Part shown: piece after piece, positions 11,443 to 63,952 of the stretch
How positions within the stretch are numbered: position 1 is the first letter of the stretch
How the letters are laid out: each line of letters starts with the position of its first letter
NCBI GenBank assembly: GCA_021849425.1
Contig: JAJZSY010000010.1
Coordinates: 1 to 64,000, forward strand
From: Pseudomonadota bacterium
GTDB lineage: Bacteria > Pseudomonadota > Alphaproteobacteria > Acetobacterales > Acetobacteraceae
Direction of reading: 5' to 3'
Length of the DNA: 64,000 nt
Notes under the pieces: generated by a model
Databases searched by the model: none
Told to the model about the DNA's origin: nothing
What the model saw: the letters and a program-made list of their open reading frames with translations, nothing else
Made by a program: the position numbers and the translations under genes

Positions 11443-13863
11443 TCAGAAATGAACCGCGACGGTACCGTAAATGCCAAAAGGCGCACCCGGATAGGCATAG
11501 ACCAAGGCGTTCGACCCTACGGCAGGGGTCGGGACAGTCGCGCCCGGCGGTGAGAAATAACCACCTGCACCAACGATTTCATACTGGTTGTACCGGTTGT
11601 TGGTGACGTTCAGCGCAGTGAGACTGACATCCACCGTCTTGCGTCCGGCATAGGGGAGTCGGACGGGCACCTTCAGCTTCAGCGCCATATTCAGAACGCC
11701 ATAGGCCGGCATCTGGACGTTGGAAGGAGCGCCGGTCGTATCGTCGAACATGTACTGGCTGCCCGTGTACTGATACCAAAGCTTCGGCTGCAAAATCATA
11801 CCGCCCATCGGGATGTCGTAATAGGCCCCGACATTGAAATTCACCGCCGGCACATACGGGACATGACTGCCGTTATAGGATGTGCCGCCAGTAACATAGC
11901 TTTGGTATTTGGCATTGATAAGCGACAGATTGCCAAACACGAACAGATTGTAGAGCGGATTGTCATCAACGAAGAGATTCGCCCCGTCATAGATTGAGGT
12001 TCCGGTCGCGAAAACCGACTGACCGCCACCGATCGCATAGCTCAGCGACTGCTTGGCATAGCGGATGTGGAAATAGTCGATGCCCGCAAGGAAGTGGTGC
12101 AGGAATCCCCGGTTCTCGACATTAAACTTCAGACCGGCGTCGTAATACTGTCCCTGTTCCAGACCATAGGCGGAGGGGTTGATCTTCGCAAACAAGCCGA
12201 ACGCACCGCCAACCGCGGGCGTACGATAGGCCTCGCTATAGGAGCCATAGGCTGTCAGCCAGGGCAGGAGTTGGGCGTTTACCGAGATCGAGGGTTCGAT
12301 GCCATTGCGGCTGGCATGGGAGCCGCAAATGGAGCCGGAATCGAAGCTATTGCCATTGCCGATCTGCAAATGCCCCCCGGTAAGGGCGCATTTCGCATAG
12401 TATCCCTGGTTGGGCAGGATGGTGAAATCCTGCAACGCAGTGTCGTTATAAGCGGTCTGGAAGCTGACGAAACGAATGCCGGGAACAATGTGCAGCATTC
12501 GGATCGGATGGATATCGTCCTGCGCGAAGAGAGCGAAATCGTTCTGGCTGAAATTACCCGACCGGAAGAACGGGCCCGCGACAGTGGTGTTGGTGCCATA
12601 GGCTGTCGAGTAGAAATTGTTCCGCGTATTATAGTCGTCGTGGATGTAATAGGCCCCAAGCGTCGCCTTGTTCAGCGGCAGCCGGGTCGTGAGCCATATC
12701 TTGTCGCCGATCGCGTTGGTATGCGGATCGTTATACTCCATCGCCTCATTCTGACCGAAAGAATAGAACAGGTCATGCAGACGGGAATGGGTTCGCTTGT
12801 AATTCTGATAATAGGTCAGGTTATGCAGTGTGGTGGACGAGTCGAGGCGGATATTTTCTCGCGCATAGACCATCCAGAACCGGTTCTCGTCCTGCTTCTC
12901 ATAAACATTGAAGGGCGGTGTGCTATAATACCCCGATGTTTTCTGACTGTAAGGAACGGTGCCGGTACTACCGGTGATATAGATTCCAGGATAAGGCGAG
13001 GTCGGGATGATCGGTGCGCGGTAAGCAACGCTGCGCGCGAAATAACCGCCAAATTCAAAAGAGCCGGCGGAAAAGCTCTTGATCGTCTTAAGATAGATCG
13101 CATAGTCGTTATAAGGATTTTGGAAACCATCAGCCGCTTTTCGGAAGCTGTTGCCATTACCCATGCCGCCGGCAAGGACAGTCGACCAGCCGTGATAGCT
13201 GCCGGTGCGCAGGTTGAACTCGATATTCTTCTGGCCGTAATTTCCATAGGTCGCGGTGATGTCGCCACCGGGCTTCGTCGTTGGTTGAACCGGGGTGAAC
13301 TCCACATTGCCCGCGACATTGGCATACCAGCGATCGGCCGGGTTGCCGGGGCCGTAGGTGGTGGTCGCGCTCGCAATAAGCCCGTTCTGCGGAATGAAGT
13401 TCGACTGCCACAAATCAGTCGAAGGATCGACCATCGGCACACCGTCCATGGTGATCATCACCGCGCCATCGCCAGTAAAGCCGCCAAAGCCACCCCAGCC
13501 CTGCTGAACGCCGTTCAGGGTGATCGTGTATTTGTCGGCACCGGTGTTGCCGTAGCCTGAAACCTGAACGCCCGGCGCGTAGGAAAGCATCTGCGCGGCG
13601 CCCCCAACCGGACCGGCCGCATCGAGGATCTTGCGGTTCAGAACACGCTTCGTTGTGCCCGACTTGAATATCTTCTTCTGGCTGGGCGCCTGCGTGGCAC
13701 CCGCAACGAGTCCAGCCGCGCCGCTGGCGCTCACCTCTCCGGCACTCACCGTCTGTGCGCCCGCCGCGATGGGGACCAGACAACTCGTCGACAGGAGCAG
13801 GATTGTCAGCCGACGGCGCATACCCCGCGTGACGCCCTTGGAACCAAGATAACTCCGCATCAT
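11443..13863 (-). CDS. TonB-dependent outer-membrane receptor (paralogue A)
   Basis: An 806-residue outer-membrane receptor. A signal peptide ends at AAGA/QTV near residue 36. Then come a short conserved segment (QTVSAGEVSASG... VAGATQAPSQKKIFKSGTTKRVLN), the plug domain (AAQMLSYAPGVQVSGYGNTGADKYTITLNG, then VMITMDGVPMVDPSTDLWQSN) and a 22-stranded barrel ending in the aromatic terminus YGTVAVHF. It imports an unknown substrate using TonB energy. It is clearly paralogous to the receptor at 16709-19147, with most plug and barrel motifs shared almost verbatim, and the two flank tonB and two small genes. A conserved 21-bp motif lies 135 bp upstream. The ligand cannot be assigned from sequence. 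Confidence 0.9.
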   Translation of the reverse strand: MMRSYLGSKGVTRGMRRRLTILLLSTSCLVPIAAGAQTVSAGEVSASGAAGLVAGATQAPSQKKIFKSGTTKRVLNRKILDAAGPVGGAAQMLSYAPGVQVSGYGNTGADKYTITLNGVQQGWGGFGGFTGDGAVMITMDGVPMVDPSTDLWQSNFIPQNGLIASATTTYGPGNPADRWYANVAGNVEFTPVQPTTKPGGDITATYGNYGQKNIEFNLRTGSYHGWSTVLAGGMGNGNSFRKAADGFQNPYNDYAIYLKTIKSFSAGSFEFGGYFARSVAYRAPIIPTSPYPGIYITGSTGTVPYSQKTSGYYSTPPFNVYEKQDENRFWMVYARENIRLDSSTTLHNLTYYQNYKRTHSRLHDLFYSFGQNEAMEYNDPHTNAIGDKIWLTTRLPLNKATLGAYYIHDDYNTRNNFYSTAYGTNTTVAGPFFRSGNFSQNDFALFAQDDIHPIRMLHIVPGIRFVSFQTAYNDTALQDFTILPNQGYYAKCALTGGHLQIGNGNSFDSGSICGSHASRNGIEPSISVNAQLLPWLTAYGSYSEAYRTPAVGGAFGLFAKINPSAYGLEQGQYYDAGLKFNVENRGFLHHFLAGIDYFHIRYAKQSLSYAIGGGQSVFATGTSIYDGANLFVDDNPLYNLFVFGNLSLINAKYQSYVTGGTSYNGSHVPYVPAVNFNVGAYYDIPMGGMILQPKLWYQYTGSQYMFDDTTGAPSNVQMPAYGVLNMALKLKVPVRLPYAGRKTVDVSLTALNVTNNRYNQYEIVGAGGYFSPPGATVPTPAVGSNALVYAYPGAPFGIYGTVAVHF

Positions 13864-13997
13864 TCATATCCCTTTTCTGGTGCGGGTGCTGACCCACCAC
13901 GCCTGGCCGAGAAGACCGCGCGGAAGTCGTTGCCCGACCCGAGGCAAGGCCAGAATGGGCGAACATGGACAACCCGTAAGATCGGATTTCAAAACGA

Positions 13998-14018
13998 TTT
14001 CACTGAAATTTCCTCGAA
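13998..14018. promoter_or_regulatory. Conserved 21-bp motif upstream of TonB receptor A
   Basis: TTTCACTGAAA-T-TTC-C-TCGAA on the plus strand. It matches 19 of 21 positions of a site upstream of receptor B (19287-19307), at a similar distance from the start codon (135 versus 140 bp). Read in the direction of transcription it is two TTCnnnGAA elements 11 bp apart, the spacing used by OmpR/PhoB-type regulators. The rest of 13864-14152 holds no gene. Confidence 0.55.
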
Positions 14019-14152
14019 TATTCAAAAGCTTGTCACGATCACGGAGCGGAGTGACGCAATTACGGCCAGGATCGAGCACCGCCGCCAGCTCCCATGCCGG
14101 ATGCGCCGTCAGGCGACCAGCATGGGGCAGCGCGCGGCGGCGCAGCGACCGC

Positions 14153-15160
14153 TCAGTCTGCGGCGGCAGCGAGGTTTCCGCTTTGCAGATCCAGCCGCAC
14201 GAGCGTCTGGTTCAGCAGGATATAGGCGATTTCACCGAAGGTGACCGGGCCGGTGAAACTGCCGGTGGTTCTCCCTTCGAGCGAGGCATAGAGATAGTTC
14301 AGAATGCAGTTGCACGACAGCGCCGTGGCGCCGCCAACATCATGAAGCGAGTTACAATAGGTGCCATAGGCCGAGGAATAATCGCCGACGGGGGCAGCAA
14401 GGCGATAGGTACGGCCGGCGACAACCGGTGCGTAAAAATCGACCTTGTCCTCATGCACCGCCTGGAAAGCGACGTTGATCATCGCACCATTGTAGTTGGC
14501 AACGAGCGGAAGCTCGCTGCCGGCACCAGTCTTGCGCAGCCATTCGGCAAAATTGCGCTCGACACCATCCACCAGACAACTCGAGGCGGAAAAGCCGGTC
14601 TCGGGGAAGACGAGATCAGGGCCGTCGCCCTGGGTAAAGAGATTGACGATATCGGCCTCGGCAAAGATACCGGGCTTAAGCGCCACATGCATCACCACGG
14701 CCTTGTCCTCGAAGGTCTCGCCAGTCACCCCATTGACCACAACAGGGCGCACCTTGCCGAGATCGGCAAGGTCGATCCCGGTGACCCAGCCGACCAACGG
14801 CTGGTCATAAAGCCCGGGCAGGACATGCGCATCGACGGCGAAGCGCTGGTGCACCGCCGAGAAGGCGGGGATCAGGACATAGGAGAAGCCATTGGCGAAG
14901 CGGCCGGACAGCAAAGATGGCAGTTCATCCTCGCCGGCAACCGCACAACGCATATCCGCCGCGTTATCAAGAATGGTGCAGAATACCTTGTCATGGTCGA
15001 GCAGCCCGCCAGAGGCCGTCATGAAATAGGGCGTGGAGCCACCGATCCATTTGCCTGGCGGCAATGTCGCAAGGGCCTGGGCGCTACCCGCGGCGAGCAG
15101 GACAGCGCCCGATTTGATAAGATCGGACGCCTCCCGCGTGGAGAGAAACATGTTGCGCAT
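14153..15160 (-). CDS. Uncharacterised protein (DUF6976-like)
   Basis: A 335-residue protein with no signal peptide and no clear membrane helix. I recall the pattern as a domain of unknown function seen in related bacteria (DUF6976), but that is memory of a family and not a search. Visible features are a small-residue-rich N-terminal half with GKWIGGSTPYFMTASGGLLDHDKVF near residue 47, slightly like the FIST-domain GGSTxG pattern, and GDGPDLVFPETGFSASSCLVDGVERNFAEWL near residue 185. The C-terminal part is Cys-containing (YGTYCNSLHDVGGATALSCNCILNYLYASLEG). It starts 23 nt after a small gene (15184-15393) on the same strand, so they are probably co-transcribed, between the two paralogous TonB receptors. 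A link with TonB-dependent uptake or sensing is inferred only from position. Confidence 0.7.
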   Translation of the reverse strand: MRNMFLSTREASDLIKSGAVLLAAGSAQALATLPPGKWIGGSTPYFMTASGGLLDHDKVFCTILDNAADMRCAVAGEDELPSLLSGRFANGFSYVLIPAFSAVHQRFAVDAHVLPGLYDQPLVGWVTGIDLADLGKVRPVVVNGVTGETFEDKAVVMHVALKPGIFAEADIVNLFTQGDGPDLVFPETGFSASSCLVDGVERNFAEWLRKTGAGSELPLVANYNGAMINVAFQAVHEDKVDFYAPVVAGRTYRLAAPVGDYSSAYGTYCNSLHDVGGATALSCNCILNYLYASLEGRTTGSFTGPVTFGEIAYILLNQTLVRLDLQSGNLAAAAD

Positions 15161-15183
15161 GGGATGTCTTTCAGTATGGAGGT

Positions 15184-15393
15184 TCAGAGGGCGGGAAGGT
15201 CGCGCGCGGCAAAAGCATTCGCGGAAAAGAATCCGTGCAACTGGTTCACGGCATCGTTCAGCGCGGAGGGATCGCGGCGGACATCGTCACGCAAGCGGGA
15301 GATCAGCAGCCGCGTAGCCAGAGAGGTTACTTTCGGTTCGGCGCCGGTGAGAGCGCGGCGCCAGCGCGGGTCCATAATCGAAGGGGTAGACAT
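15184..15393 (-). CDS. Small conserved-looking protein of unknown function, 69 residues
   Basis: A 69-residue soluble protein beginning MSTPSIMDPRWRRALTG. It has no signal peptide and is mostly predicted helix, with LISRLRDDVRRDPSALNDAVNQLHGFFSANAF in the middle. It is upstream of, and 23 nt from, the DUF6976-like gene on the same strand, with an AGGAGG Shine-Dalgarno about 5 nt before its ATG (the sequence GGAGGCTGTTCC when read on the minus strand). That ribosome-binding site and the tight spacing make it a credible gene despite its size. I recognise no family. Confidence 0.65.
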   Translation of the reverse strand: MSTPSIMDPRWRRALTGAEPKVTSLATRLLISRLRDDVRRDPSALNDAVNQLHGFFSANAFAARDLPAL

Positions 15394-15459
15394 GGAACAG
15401 CCTCCTGTTGTGGTGCGGTTCCGAACCTAGATCGCAACGATTAACTGAACGTGAACGTA

Positions 15460-15490
15460 ATCGGTAACGAAATATTGTCTCGTCACCGAT
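15460..15490. promoter_or_regulatory. Near-perfect inverted repeat upstream of the small gene at 15184
   Basis: ATCGGTAACGA and TCGTCACCGAT are separated by 9 nt and match at 10 of 11 positions. The site lies 67 bp upstream of the minus-strand small gene and is therefore a possible operator of the two-gene unit. The gap 15394-15713 (320 bp) holds this site, two hairpins at its far end, and no gene. Confidence 0.4.
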
Positions 15491-15593
15491 AATCCGCCGC
15501 GGCCGCGCCGATCTACACCGTGGTTGCGCTCCTCGTCATATGACGGTCCGCAAAGCCTGTCGTTAAAATAAAGGAATTATCAACATGACGAAA

Positions 15594-15622
15594 AGGAGGT
15601 GAGAGATACCGTCTCACCTCCT
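15594..15622 (-). terminator. Intrinsic terminator after tonB (distal hairpin)
   Basis: A perfect 11-bp stem AGGAGGTGAGA / TCTCACCTCCT with a 7-nt loop. On the minus strand it is followed by TTTT, the form expected for an intrinsic terminator of the tonB transcript. Confidence 0.65.
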
Positions 15623-15672
15623 GGCCGGCGCGCATAACCGTACGGCGCCCGATGATTGCTCCAGCAAGAGTA

Positions 15673-15706
15673 TCATCCGATCAGATCGAGTCGTCTGATC
15701 GGATGA
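15673..15706 (-). terminator. Hairpin directly after tonB (proximal hairpin)
   Basis: A perfect 13-bp stem TCATCCGATCAGA / TCTGATCGGATGA with an 8-nt loop, 7 nt past the tonB stop on the minus strand. It has no clear T-run, and it precedes a second hairpin with a T-run (15594-15622). It may be the first of two tandem terminators, or a protein site. Confidence 0.5.
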
Positions 15707-15713
15707 AATTTCT

Positions 15714-16481
15714 CTAACGGCTGCGTAGCCGGATAAAGATCGTCACCGTGATCGGGTGGTGAGGCATGTCTGACGAGAACGGCGGCAGCCGCGTCGCGCG
15801 CACCGCGGCCAGTGCTGCACGGTCGATCGGCGGAGCGCCGGAGGAGCGCACCACGCTGGCCGAAAGCAGATGCCCATCAGGGGCGATGCGCAGCGCAAGT
15901 TCGGTAACGCCGGAGAGTTGCATCATCTCGACGACCCGCGGCACCTTGAGATCCGCCTGCACGGCCGCATGAACGGCGCCGGCATAGGATTCGAGAGCGC
16001 TTTCCTGAACCGCAGCGGGCACCGGCTGCGGCTTCGGCTGTGGCGGAGCGACAGGCTTCGGCACCGTGCGCGGCAACGGTTTGGACTGCGGCTTCGGCTT
16101 GTGATGAACAACGTGGCGCGGCACCGGTTTGGGGCGCGGCACCGGCTTAGGCGGTGGCGGCACCGGCACCGGCACCGGCGGTTTCGGTAGTGGCGGCGGC
16201 GGCGGCGTTTGCGGCTTGGGCGGCGGCGGCAGCGGCTTCGGCGGAGGCGGCACCGGCTTGGGTGGCGGCGGCAGCGGCTTCGGCTTTGGCGGTGGCGCCA
16301 GCATCTTGATCCGTGTGACCTGCGGATGCGGCGCGACCGCGGCATGGCTTGGCGGCAGGTAGGCAACAAGCAGAACCAGCCCGAGTTCAAGGGCCAACGC
16401 CACGATGAGCGCGAGAGGGAACGAGAAGCGATCTTCTGGCAAGGGATTCATGCCATCACCGACGCCGCGAAAAGTGTTCAT
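15714..16481 (-). CDS. tonB: TonB energy-transducing protein
   Basis: A 255-residue TonB. It has an N-terminal membrane anchor (FSFPLALIVALALELGLVLLVAYLPP, residues about 19-45), a very long Pro-Lys periplasmic spacer (repeats of PPPKP and PKP across residues about 60-165), and a C-terminal TonB domain with VPRVVEMMQLSGVTELALRIAPDGHLLSASVVRSSGAPPIDRAALAAVRATRLPPF. It couples inner-membrane proton-motive force to the outer-membrane receptors, very likely the two flanking it. No exbB/exbD is nearby, so these must be supplied from elsewhere. The spacer's DNA is a GGC-rich low-complexity tract. The ATG at 16451 (MNPLPEDR) is an alternative start. Confidence 0.9.
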   Translation of the reverse strand: MNTFRGVGDGMNPLPEDRFSFPLALIVALALELGLVLLVAYLPPSHAAVAPHPQVTRIKMLAPPPKPKPLPPPPKPVPPPPKPLPPPPKPQTPPPPPLPKPPVPVPVPPPPKPVPRPKPVPRHVVHHKPKPQSKPLPRTVPKPVAPPQPKPQPVPAAVQESALESYAGAVHAAVQADLKVPRVVEMMQLSGVTELALRIAPDGHLLSASVVRSSGAPPIDRAALAAVRATRLPPFSSDMPHHPITVTIFIRLRSR

Positions 16482-16666
16482 GAAAACTCATGGTCCGGTT
16501 GGGAAAAAATCCGGCCGGATGATGCCATCTGGCAGGATCGTCTCCGCGTGGTCAGGTGAGCAGAACCCGCCCCCGGCCCTGTCCGGCGGGGACGCGTTCC
16601 GGATAATCCACTCCAGCCAAAGCCAGAAGGAGCGGAACAGGCGGAAGGAATGCGCCGGGAAACGAT

Positions 16667-16691
16667 GGCGCGGACCGAAACGGCCCGCGCC
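16667..16691 (-). terminator. Hairpin after TonB receptor B
   Basis: GGCGCGGACCG / CGGCCCGCGCC pair at 10 of 11 positions around an AAA loop, 17 nt past the stop of the minus-strand receptor gene. Only a weak T-run follows. The rest of 16482-16708 shows no gene. Confidence 0.4.
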
Positions 16692-16708
16692 AGTGACCCG
16701 ATCAGACG

Positions 16709-19147
16709 TCAGAAGTGAAAACCAACGCTGCCATAGATCGTGAACGGCGCGCCGGGATAGGCAAGACGGTAGCCGCTGGTCGAGGTTCCGAAGTAACCGC
16801 CGCTCGAGATGTATTCGAAAGCGTTATATTTATTGCCGGTGACATTAAGAGCGGTCAACGACACGTCCATGGTCTTGTGCCCAGCATAGGGCAGATTCAC
16901 CGGAACGTTCAGCTTCGCAGACATGTTGAGCGTGCCGTAGCCCGCCATTTTCTGGTTGCTGGGCCCTGGGTTGCCGCCGGGGCTTGATGCACCGGTATTG
17001 TCGAACAGATACTGCGATCCAGTATACTGGTACCAGATCCGCGGGGTGAGAACCATGGAGCCGATCGGCAGGTTATAATACGCGCCGATGTTGAGGTTCA
17101 TGTCGGGCACGTAGGGGACGTGATAACCGTTAAAATATTGCGGCGCGTTACCCGGTCCAGGATTGGCGTTGTAGCTCTGGTATTTTGCCTGGACGAAAGA
17201 GGCATTGGCGAAGACGAAGAGATTGTAGATCGGGTTGTCATTGGCAAAGAGATTGACGCCCTGATAGACCGACGAACCCGTTGCGAAATAACCGTTGCCG
17301 TTGATCTGCACGCTGAGCGACTGCTTGGCGTAACGGAGGTGGAAGTAATCCACACCGGCGAGGAAGTGATGCAGGAACGGCCGATTGTCTGCATGGAATT
17401 TCAGACCGGCGTCGAAATACTGCCCATATTCAAGGGCGTAGGTCGTGACAGGATTTATCTTCTGGAACAGGCCGCCACCGCCGCCCACCTGAGGTGCGCG
17501 GTACACGTCCGCGACGGTGCCATAGACCGCCATCCACGGCAGAACCTGAAAATTCGCCGACAACGACGGCTCGACGCCGTTGCGACTGACATGCGCGCCA
17601 CAGACCGAGCCCTGCTCGGTAACATTGCCAGCGGTCGAAGTCCCGTTAAGGACACACTTGGTGCCGAGCACCGCGCCTGGAGCGAGCCCGAAATCCTGCT
17701 GCGCCGAGTCGCCATAGGAGGTCTGGAAGCTGACGAAGCGGACACCCGGCGTGATGTGCAGGCGCTGGATCGGATGAATGTCATCCTGTAGGAAGAAGGC
17801 CACGTCGGTCTGGCTGAAATATCCGGAGCGGACCTTGCCGCCGATATTGGCAACGCCCTTGTTCCCGCCATTGGCAGTATTATAGAAATTATTTCTTGTA
17901 TTATAATCGTCGTGGATAATGTAGGCGCCGGCATCAACTGTGTTAAATGGCAACTTCTCGGTAAGCCAGAGCTTGTCGCCGATCACGTCAGTATGGGGAT
18001 TGTTGTATTCCATCTGCTGCGGCCCGGCGCTGTAGATATCGTTGAGCCGGGAATGGACGCGGGAGAAATTCTCGAAATACGTCAGATTGTGCAGCGTCGT
18101 GTCACGGTCGAGATTGATGTTTTCGCGGCCGAACACCATCCAGAGCGCGTCGGTGTCAAATTTCTCGTAGTTGGTGAAACTCGGCGCACTGTAGAAGCCG
18201 GAGCTCTGCTGGCTGTACAGCGTACCGGACGTGCCATTGGTGTAGACGCCGGGCTGAACCGAGGTCGGGATTACCGGGGTGCGGTAGCCGGCGCTGCGGG
18301 CAAAATAGCCGCCGAAAGCGACATTACCAGCCGAGAAGGTCTTCACCGTCTTCAGGTAGATTGAATAGTTCTCGCTCGGGCTCTTGAAGCCGTCAGGGGC
18401 AGTGCGGAAGCTGTTGCCATCACCGGTGCCGCCAGCAAGGATTGTCGACCAGCCATGGTAATTGCCGGTGCGCAGGTCGAACTCGATGTTCTTCTGACCG
18501 TAGCTGCCATAGGTGAGGTTGATGTCACCGCCAGGTTTTGTCGTCGGCTGCAACGGCGTGAACTCGATGCCGCCGCCAAAATTGTTATACCAGCGATCGG
18601 CCGGCTCGCCGGGACCATAGGTGGTGCTGACGCTCTGGATCATCCCGCTCTGCGGGATCATGTTCGACTGCCAGAGATTGGTGGACGGATCGACAACCGG
18701 CACGCCATCCAGCGTGACGCCAAGCAGACCGTCGGCGCTCAGCATGCTGCCATAGCCACCCCAACCCTGCGACACGCCGTTCAGAGTAACGGTGTATTTG
18801 GTGGAGCCGGTATTACCATACCCACTGACCTGCACACCCGGCGCATAGGACAGCATCTGCGCGGCGCCCGCGACCGGGCCCGCCGCTTCAAGAAGCTTGC
18901 GGTTCAGCACGCGGGTCGTGGTTCCCGACTTGAACACCTTCTTCTGGCTCGGCGCCACGGTGGCGCCCGCGACATAACCGGAGCCGGCGGCGCTTACCTC
19001 GCCGGCGCTGACCGTCTGCGCATGCGCAGCGACTGGGATGAGGCAGCTTGACGAGAGAAGAAGTGCCACGAGGCGACGCTGCGCGACACGGCCGCCTGAC
19101 CGGGCCGTTTCATGGTTGAGCGACCGTGCCTGCTGAGAAAACCGCAC
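16709..19147 (-). CDS. TonB-dependent outer-membrane receptor (paralogue B)
   Basis: An 812-residue receptor, close paralogue of the one at 11443-13863. The signal peptide ends AAHA/QTV. It shares QTVSAGEVSA, APSQKKVFKSGTTTRVLN, AAQMLSYAPGVQVSGYGNTG, ADRWY and QPTTKPGGDI with its partner, and ends YGSVGFHF as an outer-membrane sorting terminus. Differences concentrate in extracellular loops, as expected of receptors with related but different ligands or of a recent duplicate that diverged. It is the first gene of the minus-strand series leading to tonB, 227 bp downstream. The same 21-bp motif found upstream of paralogue A lies 140 bp upstream. The substrate is unknown. Confidence 0.9.
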   Translation of the reverse strand: MRFSQQARSLNHETARSGGRVAQRRLVALLLSSSCLIPVAAHAQTVSAGEVSAAGSGYVAGATVAPSQKKVFKSGTTTRVLNRKLLEAAGPVAGAAQMLSYAPGVQVSGYGNTGSTKYTVTLNGVSQGWGGYGSMLSADGLLGVTLDGVPVVDPSTNLWQSNMIPQSGMIQSVSTTYGPGEPADRWYNNFGGGIEFTPLQPTTKPGGDINLTYGSYGQKNIEFDLRTGNYHGWSTILAGGTGDGNSFRTAPDGFKSPSENYSIYLKTVKTFSAGNVAFGGYFARSAGYRTPVIPTSVQPGVYTNGTSGTLYSQQSSGFYSAPSFTNYEKFDTDALWMVFGRENINLDRDTTLHNLTYFENFSRVHSRLNDIYSAGPQQMEYNNPHTDVIGDKLWLTEKLPFNTVDAGAYIIHDDYNTRNNFYNTANGGNKGVANIGGKVRSGYFSQTDVAFFLQDDIHPIQRLHITPGVRFVSFQTSYGDSAQQDFGLAPGAVLGTKCVLNGTSTAGNVTEQGSVCGAHVSRNGVEPSLSANFQVLPWMAVYGTVADVYRAPQVGGGGGLFQKINPVTTYALEYGQYFDAGLKFHADNRPFLHHFLAGVDYFHLRYAKQSLSVQINGNGYFATGSSVYQGVNLFANDNPIYNLFVFANASFVQAKYQSYNANPGPGNAPQYFNGYHVPYVPDMNLNIGAYYNLPIGSMVLTPRIWYQYTGSQYLFDNTGASSPGGNPGPSNQKMAGYGTLNMSAKLNVPVNLPYAGHKTMDVSLTALNVTGNKYNAFEYISSGGYFGTSTSGYRLAYPGAPFTIYGSVGFHF

Positions 19148-19286
19148 AATGAGTCCCTTTCCGATAGTGGGTTTTTTCAGACCGTCTCGCCCGCAAGCCT
19201 GTCGGATTGCGGGGGGTCTGATTGTGTCGGCGTGTAAGCAGACCGGATGGAGGGTTACAATGTGGCAGACCTGGCGAACCGGCTGG

Positions 19287-19307
19287 TTTCACTGAAACTT
19301 CGTCGAA
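19287..19307. promoter_or_regulatory. Conserved 21-bp motif upstream of TonB receptor B
   Basis: TTTCACTGAAA-C-TTC-G-TCGAA on the plus strand, a 19/21 match to the site at 13998-14018. The gap 19148-19451 (304 bp) holds this motif, the receptor promoter and the divergent macA promoter, and no gene. Confidence 0.55.
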
Positions 19308-19451
19308 ACGACCCTGAAGTGTAACATTCGCAATCAGCCTTCCGGAGACGGATTGATATGCGTCATGGCCTCCGCCCGCTGGCCGTGCGCAAGGTGCAAC
19401 GCCATCCGCCGGCGGGCCGTTCGAGCGGATGCGCCGTGCAGGAGACGACGC

Positions 19452-22833: not shown

Positions 22834-22880
22834 GGTGATGGGGTTCGCCGCAAACCGCCCGCGGGGCTGATGACTCCTGT
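22834..22880 (+). promoter_or_regulatory. Fluoride riboswitch aptamer (crcB motif)
   Basis: The crcB RNA consensus can be drawn. Stem P1 pairs GGTGA (22834-22838) with TCGCC (22845-22849). Stem P2 pairs GCCC (22857-22860) with GGGC (22864-22867). The P1 loop GGGGT (22840-22844) pairs with ACTCC (22873-22877) as the pseudoknot. The conserved segments GGTGATGG, TTCGCC and GCTGATGACTCCT match the motif. It lies upstream of crcB, the fluoride channel gene. Recognition is by consensus only; no covariance search was run. Confidence 0.88.
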
Positions 22881-22908
22881 TTCATTCCGTCAGACTCGGA
22901 GGAACAGG
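22876..22908 (+). promoter_or_regulatory. Expression-platform hairpin sequestering a GGAGG Shine-Dalgarno
   Basis: CCTGTTTC (22876-22883) pairs with GGAACAGG (22901-22908), and an inner stem TCCG / CGGA (22886-22889 with 22897-22900) stacks above it, burying GGAGG at 22898-22902. Its 5' strand begins with CC at 22876-22877, which the aptamer pseudoknot also needs, so the two structures compete. Fluoride binding would open the Shine-Dalgarno. Confidence 0.7.
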
Positions 22909-22909
22909 C

Positions 22910-23014
22910 GTGCCTATCACCCGACCTTGCCGAACGAACCGCGCGGCGCGCGCCGCTGCCGTTCCCCTCCCCAGCCATTCAAATGCATCGCCACGACAGA
23001 AAGGCAGTTCATGA
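22910..23014 (+). CDS. Putative 34-residue leader peptide translationally coupled to crcB
   Basis: A GTG-start reading frame of 34 codons beginning with residues MPITRPCRTNRAARA when GTG is read as Met. GGAGG lies 7 nt before the GTG, inside the riboswitch hairpin. Its TGA (23012-23014) overlaps the crcB ATG (23011-23013) as ATGA, the classic arrangement for translational coupling. The peptide is Arg/Ala/Pro-rich and shows no membrane segment; its sequence may not matter. It could be chance, but the good Shine-Dalgarno, its burial in the riboswitch and the exact ATGA overlap agree. Confidence 0.5.
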   Translation: MPITRPCRTNRAARAAAVPLPSHSNASPRQKGSS

Positions 23015-23388
23015 TCAAGACGCTTGCGTCAATCGCCGTGTTCGGCTCGCTCGGCTGCTGGGCGCGCTACGGCCAGACGATTTTCATGCAGGGGCTTTTC
23101 GGCCGCGGCTTCCCCGTCGCCGTTCTCAGCATCAACGTGCTCGGTTCGTTTGCGATCGGGTTTCTCTTCGTCCTGACCGCCGAGCGCGTCGCCATCGATC
23201 CGGCGCTGCGCACCGGTATCCTGACGGGGTTTCTCGGCGGTTATACCACGTTCTCGACCTTCGAGCTTGAATCCCTCATGCTGGTCGAGAACGGCGAGAT
23301 CGCGAGAGCGGGGCTCTATGTGCTGCTGTCGGTCGTGCTCGGGTTCATCGGCGCCTTTCTTGGCGTCTATCTGGCAAGGAATGTCTGA
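23011..23388 (+). CDS. crcB: Fluoride exporter CrcB/Fluc
   Basis: A 125-residue, four-helix Fluc-type fluoride channel that lowers cytoplasmic fluoride. Family motifs are GSLGCWARYG (helix 1), VAVLSINVLGSFAIGFLF (with the conserved Asn) and TGFLGGYTTFSTFELES (with the Thr/Ser/Phe residues lining the fluoride track). A riboswitch for fluoride lies directly upstream. The start at 23011 is chosen because helix 1 begins immediately and a purine-rich AGAAAGG is upstream; the longer in-frame start at 22870 is inside the aptamer and rejected. The DUF190 gene overlaps its last 8 bases. Confidence 0.95.
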   Translation: MIKTLASIAVFGSLGCWARYGQTIFMQGLFGRGFPVAVLSINVLGSFAIGFLFVLTAERVAIDPALRTGILTGFLGGYTTFSTFELESLMLVENGEIARAGLYVLLSVVLGFIGAFLGVYLARNV

Positions 23389-29290: not shown

Positions 29291-29989
29291 ATGACGCGAC
29301 CCAGCCTGGACATCCTGCTGGTTGAGGACGACGAGCTGACCGCCAATCTTGTGCGCGCCGCGCTCGGCGCCGAGGGGCATCTCGTCGCCGTCGCCGCCGA
29401 TGGCCGGGCCGGCCTGCTGCGCGCCGCCGCCGGTCATGAGGGCCGGGCTTGGGACCTGCTGATCGTCGACCGCATGCTCCCTGGCCTCGACGGTCTCGCC
29501 CTGGTCCGCACCCTGCGCGGCGCCGGCCTGACGATGCCGGCGCTGTTCCTCACCGCCCTCGGCGGCATCGACGACCGGGTCGAGGGCCTGCGTGCCGGCG
29601 GCGACGACTACCTCGTCAAGCCCTTCGCCGCCGCCGAACTCGCCGCCCGCGTCGCCGCCCTGGCCCGGCGCGGCGAGATGCGCCCCTCCGGGCCGGTGCT
29701 CCGGGTCGACGATCTCGAACTCGACCGGCTCACCCGCGCCGTCACCCGCGCCGGCCGGCGCATCGACCTGAAGCCCCGCGAATACGAGGTGCTGGAATAC
29801 CTGATGCGCCATGCCGGGCGCGTGGTGACGCGGACGATGCTGCTCGAGGATGTCTGGAACTTCCATTTCGACCCGCGCACCAGCGTGGTGGAGTCGCATG
29901 TCTCCCGCCTGCGCGCCAAACTCGGCGCCGGGCGCGAACTGCTGCACACCGTGCGCGGCGCCGGATACCGCATCGGCGACCCCGCATGA
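29291..29989 (+). CDS. OmpR-family response regulator
   Basis: A 232-residue two-domain response regulator: receiver (DILLVEDDELTANLVRAALG at the start, phospho-acceptor Asp about residue 60 in LLIVDRMLPGLDG, Lys in YLVKPFAAAELA) and a C-terminal winged helix (LELDRLTRAVTRAGRRIDLKPREYEVLEYLMRHAGRVVTRTMLLEDVWNFHFDPRTSVVESHVSRLRAKL), both typical. The kinase starts with the ATGA overlap at 29986. The unit is divergent from the RND efflux operon and is probably its regulator. I prefer the ATG at 29291; the GTG at 29270 would add seven residues. Confidence 0.92.
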   Translation: MTRPSLDILLVEDDELTANLVRAALGAEGHLVAVAADGRAGLLRAAAGHEGRAWDLLIVDRMLPGLDGLALVRTLRGAGLTMPALFLTALGGIDDRVEGLRAGGDDYLVKPFAAAELAARVAALARRGEMRPSGPVLRVDDLELDRLTRAVTRAGRRIDLKPREYEVLEYLMRHAGRVVTRTMLLEDVWNFHFDPRTSVVESHVSRLRAKLGAGRELLHTVRGAGYRIGDPA

Positions 29990-63254: not shown

Positions 63255-63952
63255 GCTTCCTTGTAGCGGTAGCCGATGCCGTACAGCGTCTCGATCTGGT
63301 CGAACTCGTCATCGACGGCGCGAAACTTGCGCCGCAGCCGCTTGATATGACTGTCGATCGTGCGGTCATCGACATAGACGCTCTCGCCATAGGCGGCGTC
63401 GATCAGCTGGTCTCGCGACTTGACCATGCCCGGGCGAGCGGCAAGCGCCTTGACCAGCAGGAATTCGGTGACGGTGAGCTGGATATCCTGCCCCTTCCAG
63501 AGGCATTGGTGCTTGGTTTCATCGAGCGTGAGATCGCCCCTGCCAATGACGCCGGTGGGGGCGGCGCCGGAGCCTTCGGCGCGACTCGTCTCGTTGCGGC
63601 GGAGCAGGGCGCGAATGCGCTCGATCAGCAGGCGCTGGCTGAAGGGTTTGGTGATGTAGTCGTCGGCGCCGAGGCGCAAGCCCATCAGCTCGTCAAGCTC
63701 ATCGTCCTTGCTGGTGAGGAAAATGACCGGCATCGCCGAGCGGGCGCGGAGGCGCTGGAGCAGCTCCATCCCGTCCATGCGCGGCATCTTGATATCGAGC
63801 ACGGCGAGATCGGCCGGACGGGTCAGCAAACCCTGGAGTGCCGACTCCCCGTCGGTATAGGTGCGAACGGCATATCCCTCCTGTTCGAGTGTCATCTGCA
63901 CCGATTCGAGGATGTTCCGGTCGTCGTCGACGAGAGCGATGGTCTGTTTCAT
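63251..63952 (-). CDS. chvI: ChvI-type response regulator
   Basis: A 233-residue OmpR-family regulator: receiver ([24 protein letters not shown], phospho-acceptor Asp53 in [24 protein letters not shown], Lys in YITKPFSQ) and winged helix ([56 protein letters not shown]). The sequence [19 protein letters not shown] is strongly conserved in the ChvI group. The start at 63952 ([10 protein letters not shown]) is chosen over 63985 because homologues begin there. It regulates envelope, exopolysaccharide and acid-response genes in related bacteria. Confidence 0.92.

Follow-up and report, generated by a model that had tools for sequence, protein, structure and literature searches.

The subject of this analysis is a window of 64,000 nucleotides on contig C31, which belongs to a draft genome of 2.9 Mb and 94% completeness from the family Acetobacteraceae, and in particular the DNA upstream of two genes coding for TonB-dependent receptors. 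Both genes lie on the minus strand. Receptor 1 (806 aa, 11443-13863) matches PF00593 above its cut-off and PF07715 with 20.9 bits, below the cut-off of 23.9, whereas receptor 2 (812 aa, 16709-19147) matches both models above their cut-offs. The two proteins are paralogues, sharing 63% identity (510 of 811 aligned positions). As described in the initial annotation, a 21-bp motif occurs upstream of each: coordinates and alignment agree that copy 1, TTTCACTGAAATTTCCTCGAA, lies at 13998-14018 (plus strand), 135 bp from the start of receptor 1 at 13863, that copy 2, TTTCACTGAAACTTCGTCGAA, lies at 19287-19307 (plus strand), 140 bp from the start of receptor 2 at 19147, and that the copies are identical at 19 of 21 positions. 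The bases around them are dissimilar, and a blastn comparison of the two gene-plus-upstream stretches returned the 21-mer as a separate match (19/21, E-value 0.006). With up to three mismatches, the pattern is found at two places only in the window (two matches were reached in 0 of 100 shuffles, mean 0.00) and is confined to the same two places in the whole draft genome. Nor can the 21-mer itself be regarded as a regulon motif, since it is found in none of the other 298 of 299 genomes of the family with up to two mismatches.

The 11-bp periodicity extends past the 21-mer, forming an array of 44-55 bp made of head-to-tail units. Upstream of receptor 1, five units occupy positions 13987-14041, in plus-strand order TTTCAAAACGA, TTTCACTGAAA, TTTCCTCGAAT, ATTCAAAAGCT, and TGTCACGATCA, with motif copy 1 inside units 2 and 3; upstream of receptor 2, four units occupy positions 19287-19330, in the order TTTCACTGAAA, CTTCGTCGAAA, CGACCCTGAAG, and TGTAACATTCG, with motif copy 2 within them. 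Both arrays were scored with the pst-trained matrix described below and both are on the plus strand, that is, inverted relative to the genes. The half-site is KTCA-N7 with an A-rich stretch, reading TGA on the opposite strand; the TTCnnnGAA box previously taken as the unit has thus to be replaced, and the two boxes become four to five units. On the receptor side of each array, a TTG-N15-TCTG element, whose role as a promoter we infer, is found on the minus strand at 13951-13972 for receptor 1 (25 bp from the four-unit array 13998-14041) and at 19239-19260 for receptor 2 (26 bp from the array).

The array is conserved well beyond the strain under study. For comparison we used 13 genomes of the genus (this one and 12 others), 10 of which, besides this one, harbor close receptor orthologues with 59-68% protein identity, apart from a split orthologue whose pieces have 56 and 66%. 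The latter (G153:C18:1419429-1423043, loci L013 and L022) consists of two pieces separated by about 1.2 kb, the 3' one containing one stop. The 21-mer is absent upstream of the orthologues; in its place, at a similar distance from the start codon, there is a diverged block that reads TGACA..., GACA..., TGAA..., TGAA... in the gene direction, with one unit every 11 bp. A pattern derived from these blocks gave, with up to three mismatches, 12 matches in 11 of the 13 genomes, all before a receptor gene (control, 0); the two arrays of the window match it only with all three mismatches allowed, and the two genomes without a match also lack a close receptor orthologue (best identities 40 and 39%). 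Since the presence of the block in the orthologues follows from the way the pattern was constructed, the informative part of this result is its absence elsewhere. The TTG-N15-TCTG element is located 25-26 bp downstream of the array end in 11 of 12 orthologue promoters. On the far side of the array, a conserved hexamer is lacking at the spacing of pst promoters, and visual inspection of the 12 regions gives none that looks like the hexamers of pst.

The pstS gene is present in all 13 genomes, and its promoters share TGTCATnAAAnnTTMA, which corresponds to two units 11 bp apart. Searched over the genus, a two-unit pattern derived from them gave 49 matches versus 2 in the control. About half of the 49 are pstS or pstB sites, and another site, before pstB, proved to be conserved in 12 of 13 genomes (pstB identified above the cut-off in the three cases checked, including this genome, by eye in eight, and by position in one). 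Downstream of this site, the genome under study encodes pstB, phoU, and phoB, each above its NCBIfam cut-off, and the PhoB protein scores 331 bits against TIGR02154 (cut-off, 296). By eye, most pstB promoters consist of three units followed by a TGATAG-like hexamer, located 16 bp from the point where the last unit starts, which is the geometry of E. coli phoA. The same two-unit pattern also matches the receptor arrays of two genomes, on the strand pointing away from the gene. One further match (L165) precedes a gene resembling acid phosphatases/phospholipases, with scores well under the family cut-offs.

We built a weight matrix whose 75 units come from the promoters of 13 pstS and 12 pstB genes, with no receptor sequence included, and applied it to 28 receptor upstream regions, 12 from orthologues and 16 from more distant relatives (37 relatives, 30 with loci; L013, the 3' piece of the split gene, and L032, a partial match, were left out; of the seven relatives initially without loci, five were retrieved later, L225 and L228-L231). 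A four-unit array was detected in all 12 orthologue regions, including the two of the window (equalled in 0 of 300 shuffles, z 5.5-9.1), and 11 bp was the best of seven spacings in each of them, those of 8-10 and 12-14 bp scoring lower (closest case, 17.3 vs 28.7); the attribution to the 11-bp direct repeats of the OmpR/PhoB class made in the initial annotation is thus borne out. In the window, the array of receptor 1 ranks first (four-unit score 22.8) and that of receptor 2 second (20.4), the best unrelated place reaching 13.3; with five units, receptor 1 scores 28.5 versus 9.5 for receptor 2 and 7.5 for unrelated places. In the genus background (499 tiles of 400 bp, 201 kb around receptors and pstS), eight tiles reach 20 bits and all eight are receptor arrays, a ninth (L147) being split by a tile edge; the next, with 18, is pstS. 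Outside positions 3-5, the units still fit the pst ones, with a mean of +2.69 bits per unit over 11 arrays (L022 is omitted from the pair counts).

Similar arrays are not restricted to the close orthologues. Among the 16 more distant receptors of the genus, eight (L015, L019, L024, L025, and L028-L031) have an array in the normal direction, equalled in at most 1 of 300 shuffles; L020 and L021 have weaker ones, and with the pst matrix none was found upstream of L014, L017, L018, L023, L026, and L027. Of 16 homologues from other genera of the family, 12 carry an array (equalled in 0 of 300 shuffles), eight inverted and four in the normal direction, while in L241, L243, L249, and L250 it is weak or absent. 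The third receptor of this genome (G000:C34) has only a weak A+T-rich candidate (18.7, scored without a shuffle control), and the plasmid receptor of Acidiphilium cryptum, with 34.5% identity, has no clear array, its best scores, likewise without a shuffle control, being 11.6 for three units (upstream) and 12.6 for four units (inside the gene).

Genome-wide searches connect the receptor arrays with the phosphate genes in both directions. A three-unit pattern with at most one mismatch gave, in this genome, four matches at three places (reversed-pattern control, 0), namely the pstB-phoU-phoB promoter, a ugpB-like gene (350 bits, under the cut-off of 411), and receptor 1; with two mismatches, the scan was too noisy (35 matches vs 12 in the control) and still missed the array of receptor 2. 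Over the genus, the pattern gave 65 matches versus 16 with at most one mismatch, simple tandem repeats among them, and outside this genome only matches at known pst or receptor places were interpreted. Reciprocally, we constructed a profile of 13 receptor arrays, all taken from other genomes and containing no pst site, with both arrays of the window held out and the near copies L008, L012, and L022 omitted, and searched the 13 genomes with it (150 first-look candidates scored per genome, of 242 to 608 found). All 21 matches at E < 0.01 lie before genes matching TonB receptors; 13 are the training sequences and eight are new, three of these being orthologues of training sequences and one being receptor 2 of the window (E 0.002). 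The 16 weaker matches (E 0.09-0.75) include five pstB promoters from five genomes (E 0.18-0.59), the ugpB-like gene of this genome, and two receptors; the other eight were not assigned, one of them standing before a gene without visible phosphate link. As for the idea that the motif could define a regulon, the underlying unit recurs in a regulon-like set that includes pst promoters and the ugpB-like gene, while the 21-mer, with its two copies in this genome, does not define one.

On the basis of the conservation in orthologues, the ranks obtained with the pst matrix, and the three places found by the genome scan, we suggest, with a probability of roughly 0.74, that the arrays are PhoB operators (Pho boxes) activated at low phosphate, with four to five 11-bp half-sites per receptor. 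Because the row of units closely resembles the sites of control by phosphate shortage, the two outer-membrane receptors would probably be part of the phosphate-starvation response. According to this scheme, in which PhoB as the binder, its activating effect, and the cargo are what we infer, low phosphate would act through PhoR to yield phosphorylated PhoB, which would bind the four or five half-sites in tandem and raise receptor transcription; more receptor in the outer membrane might then allow the import of a phosphorus source or of an iron complex. As for the cargo, the receptor family models matched are those for siderophore and heme, with scores far under the cut-offs, and receptor 1 has no solved-structure relative at E ≤ 0.001. 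In passages of PMC4478699, the phosphate-poor state presumed for acid mine water is put down to precipitation with iron and aluminium, so that phosphate control of the receptors would be sensible if the organism lives there.

Several observations weigh against this interpretation. All 12 orthologues have an array of inverted direction with respect to the gene, unlike the pst promoters, where the units point toward the promoter; this direction is a trait of known promoters and not of the binding site. When the columns of the matrix were permuted, both arrays of the window occupied the two highest ranks in 8 of 300 cases and at least one of them in 106 of 300; therefore, periodicity alone accounts for part of the signal. 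The reciprocal profile does not recover the array of receptor 1 at E ≤ 1 among the 150 of 242 candidates scored in this genome, and at three units the two directions are nearly equal for receptor 2 (17.6 vs 17.3). The pstS sites, in turn, have no clear third unit, and three matches to the two-unit pattern (L150, L156, and L172) lie at places without visible phosphate link. The second sites found 3' of orthologous receptors (see below) were detected 3' of neither receptor of the window. Lastly, along the gene the array takes the form TGA-N8-TGA, which is the motif of CenR.

It is this last point that makes a CenR-like regulator of the OmpR family, reading the array along the genes and controlling the receptors as envelope genes, the main rival, although we consider it unlikely. 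According to passages of PMC9275681, 28 of 31 CenR sites of Rhodobacter sphaeroides are directly 5' of the -35 and point along transcription; by eye, the arrays in the gene direction have a CenR-like form and a similar location. This genome also encodes at least eight full-length OmpR-type regulators, and in two genomes of the genus, such a regulator is divergent from the receptor (L146:423-1163 and L147:4692-5432, both on the minus strand; the reading frames are alike in both, with domains checked by Pfam in L146). However, the inverted reading is ahead of the gene-direction one by 12-26 bits at four units in all 12 orthologues. We prefer PhoB to CenR because the outer positions, beyond the TCA core, fit the pst-trained unit, because further receptors of the genus have their array in the normal Pho direction, and because a second, two-unit site in the normal direction is present in the 3' regions of six of eight orthologous receptors (equalled in no more than 3 of 300 shuffles; the split receptor L148 was left out). 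The six receptors are those followed by exbB (identified by Pfam in three and by eye in three).

These gaps between receptor stop and exbB (L142, L143, L144, L146, L147, and L149), in which the two-unit Pho-like site is conserved, carry after it, by eye, a G+C-rich inverted repeat, GGCGCAGC...GCTGCGCC; the element may possibly be an internal promoter or a terminator.

A combined scheme, which we regard as quite unlikely, would have one operator with two readings, TCA-N8-TCA for PhoB and, on the opposite strand, TGA-N8-TGA for a CenR-like regulator, with phosphate and envelope state competing or cooperating; in a milder form, the inverted arrays of four units, with their fixed distance, would be sites of activation by PhoB and would make up a promoter class distinct from the textbook Pho type. 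It is very unlikely that transcription driven by the array is divergent and leads away from the receptors, in the manner of a Pho promoter of normal direction. The direction of the units and the divergent gene beside receptor 2 and some orthologues would fit this possibility, but no hexamer is conserved at pst spacing on that side, the gene upstream of receptor 1 has the same orientation as that of the receptor, and the fixed spacing is to the element on the receptor side. The fixed spacing and the absence of a conserved far-side hexamer lead us to assign the array to the receptor promoter; its geometry there differs from that of pst promoters. Finally, the possibility, raised together with the motif, that the likeness is a functionless remnant of a duplicated promoter is in keeping with the paralogy of the two receptors and hardly credible, given that the promoter surroundings have diverged while the array (12 of 12 orthologue promoters) and its spacing to TTG-N15-TCTG are kept, and that arrays are likewise present upstream of receptors more distantly related and in genera other than this one.

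As for the surrounding genes, a TonB family protein (15714-16481, minus strand; TIGR01352 and PF03544 above their cut-offs) is encoded 3' of receptor 2, and a full-length DUF6976 protein (PF22396, 14153-15160) upstream of receptor 1; among the best 80 of 389 relatives of the latter, the top ones are mainly from Rhodobacteraceae and others belong to distant phyla. The window harbors two further response regulators of OmpR type (29309-29974, plus strand, and 63263-63952, minus strand), whose best models, those of heavy-metal and sortase-system regulators, are matched under the cut-offs. The motif was also considered as an RNA element and rejected as such, since the single Rfam match of the window at gathering thresholds is a fluoride riboswitch at another place (RF01734, 22825-22886, 50.2 bits), directly 5' of a CrcB-like gene (open reading frame 22870-23388).

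A comparison with known systems shows both likenesses and differences. The Pho box is described as tandem 11-bp direct repeats in passages of PMC4415409, and its E. coli consensus contains CTGTCAT (passages of PMC3465305). The arrays reported here are of the same kind and their unit fits the pst promoters of the genus; however, they comprise four to five units where the Pho box has two, their half-sites near the gene are mostly TTCA instead of TGTCA, and they are inverted and farther from the presumed promoter. The CenR site of R. sphaeroides has the same period and, in the gene direction, the same core, with two half-sites in the passages of PMC9275681 versus four here, where the outer positions fit pst units. 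In the PUMA3 (VreI/PhoB) system of Pseudomonas aeruginosa, the Pho box is 5' of the -35 instead of replacing it, as appears to be the case here, but PhoB is paired there with an extracytoplasmic function (ECF) sigma factor (passages of PMC4971064). In Caulobacter crescentus, another alphaproteobacterium, TonB receptors are part of a PhoB regulon; the passages of PMC11208175 give no site anatomy, whereas sites and two directions are described here. Pho boxes made of 11-bp repeats and the control of TonB receptors by PhoB are therefore known already. As far as we found in the open-licence literature, inverted arrays are apparently undescribed, and so are four-unit arrays in two directions upstream of receptors of this family. 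From them comes the testable prediction that the phosphate-starvation response includes a group of outer-membrane TonB receptors, which seems to extend over several genera of the family. Moreover, since the textbook model of PhoB, with its sigma-factor contact, implies that PhoB faces the promoter, inverted arrays at a fixed distance bear on whether it must do so to activate.

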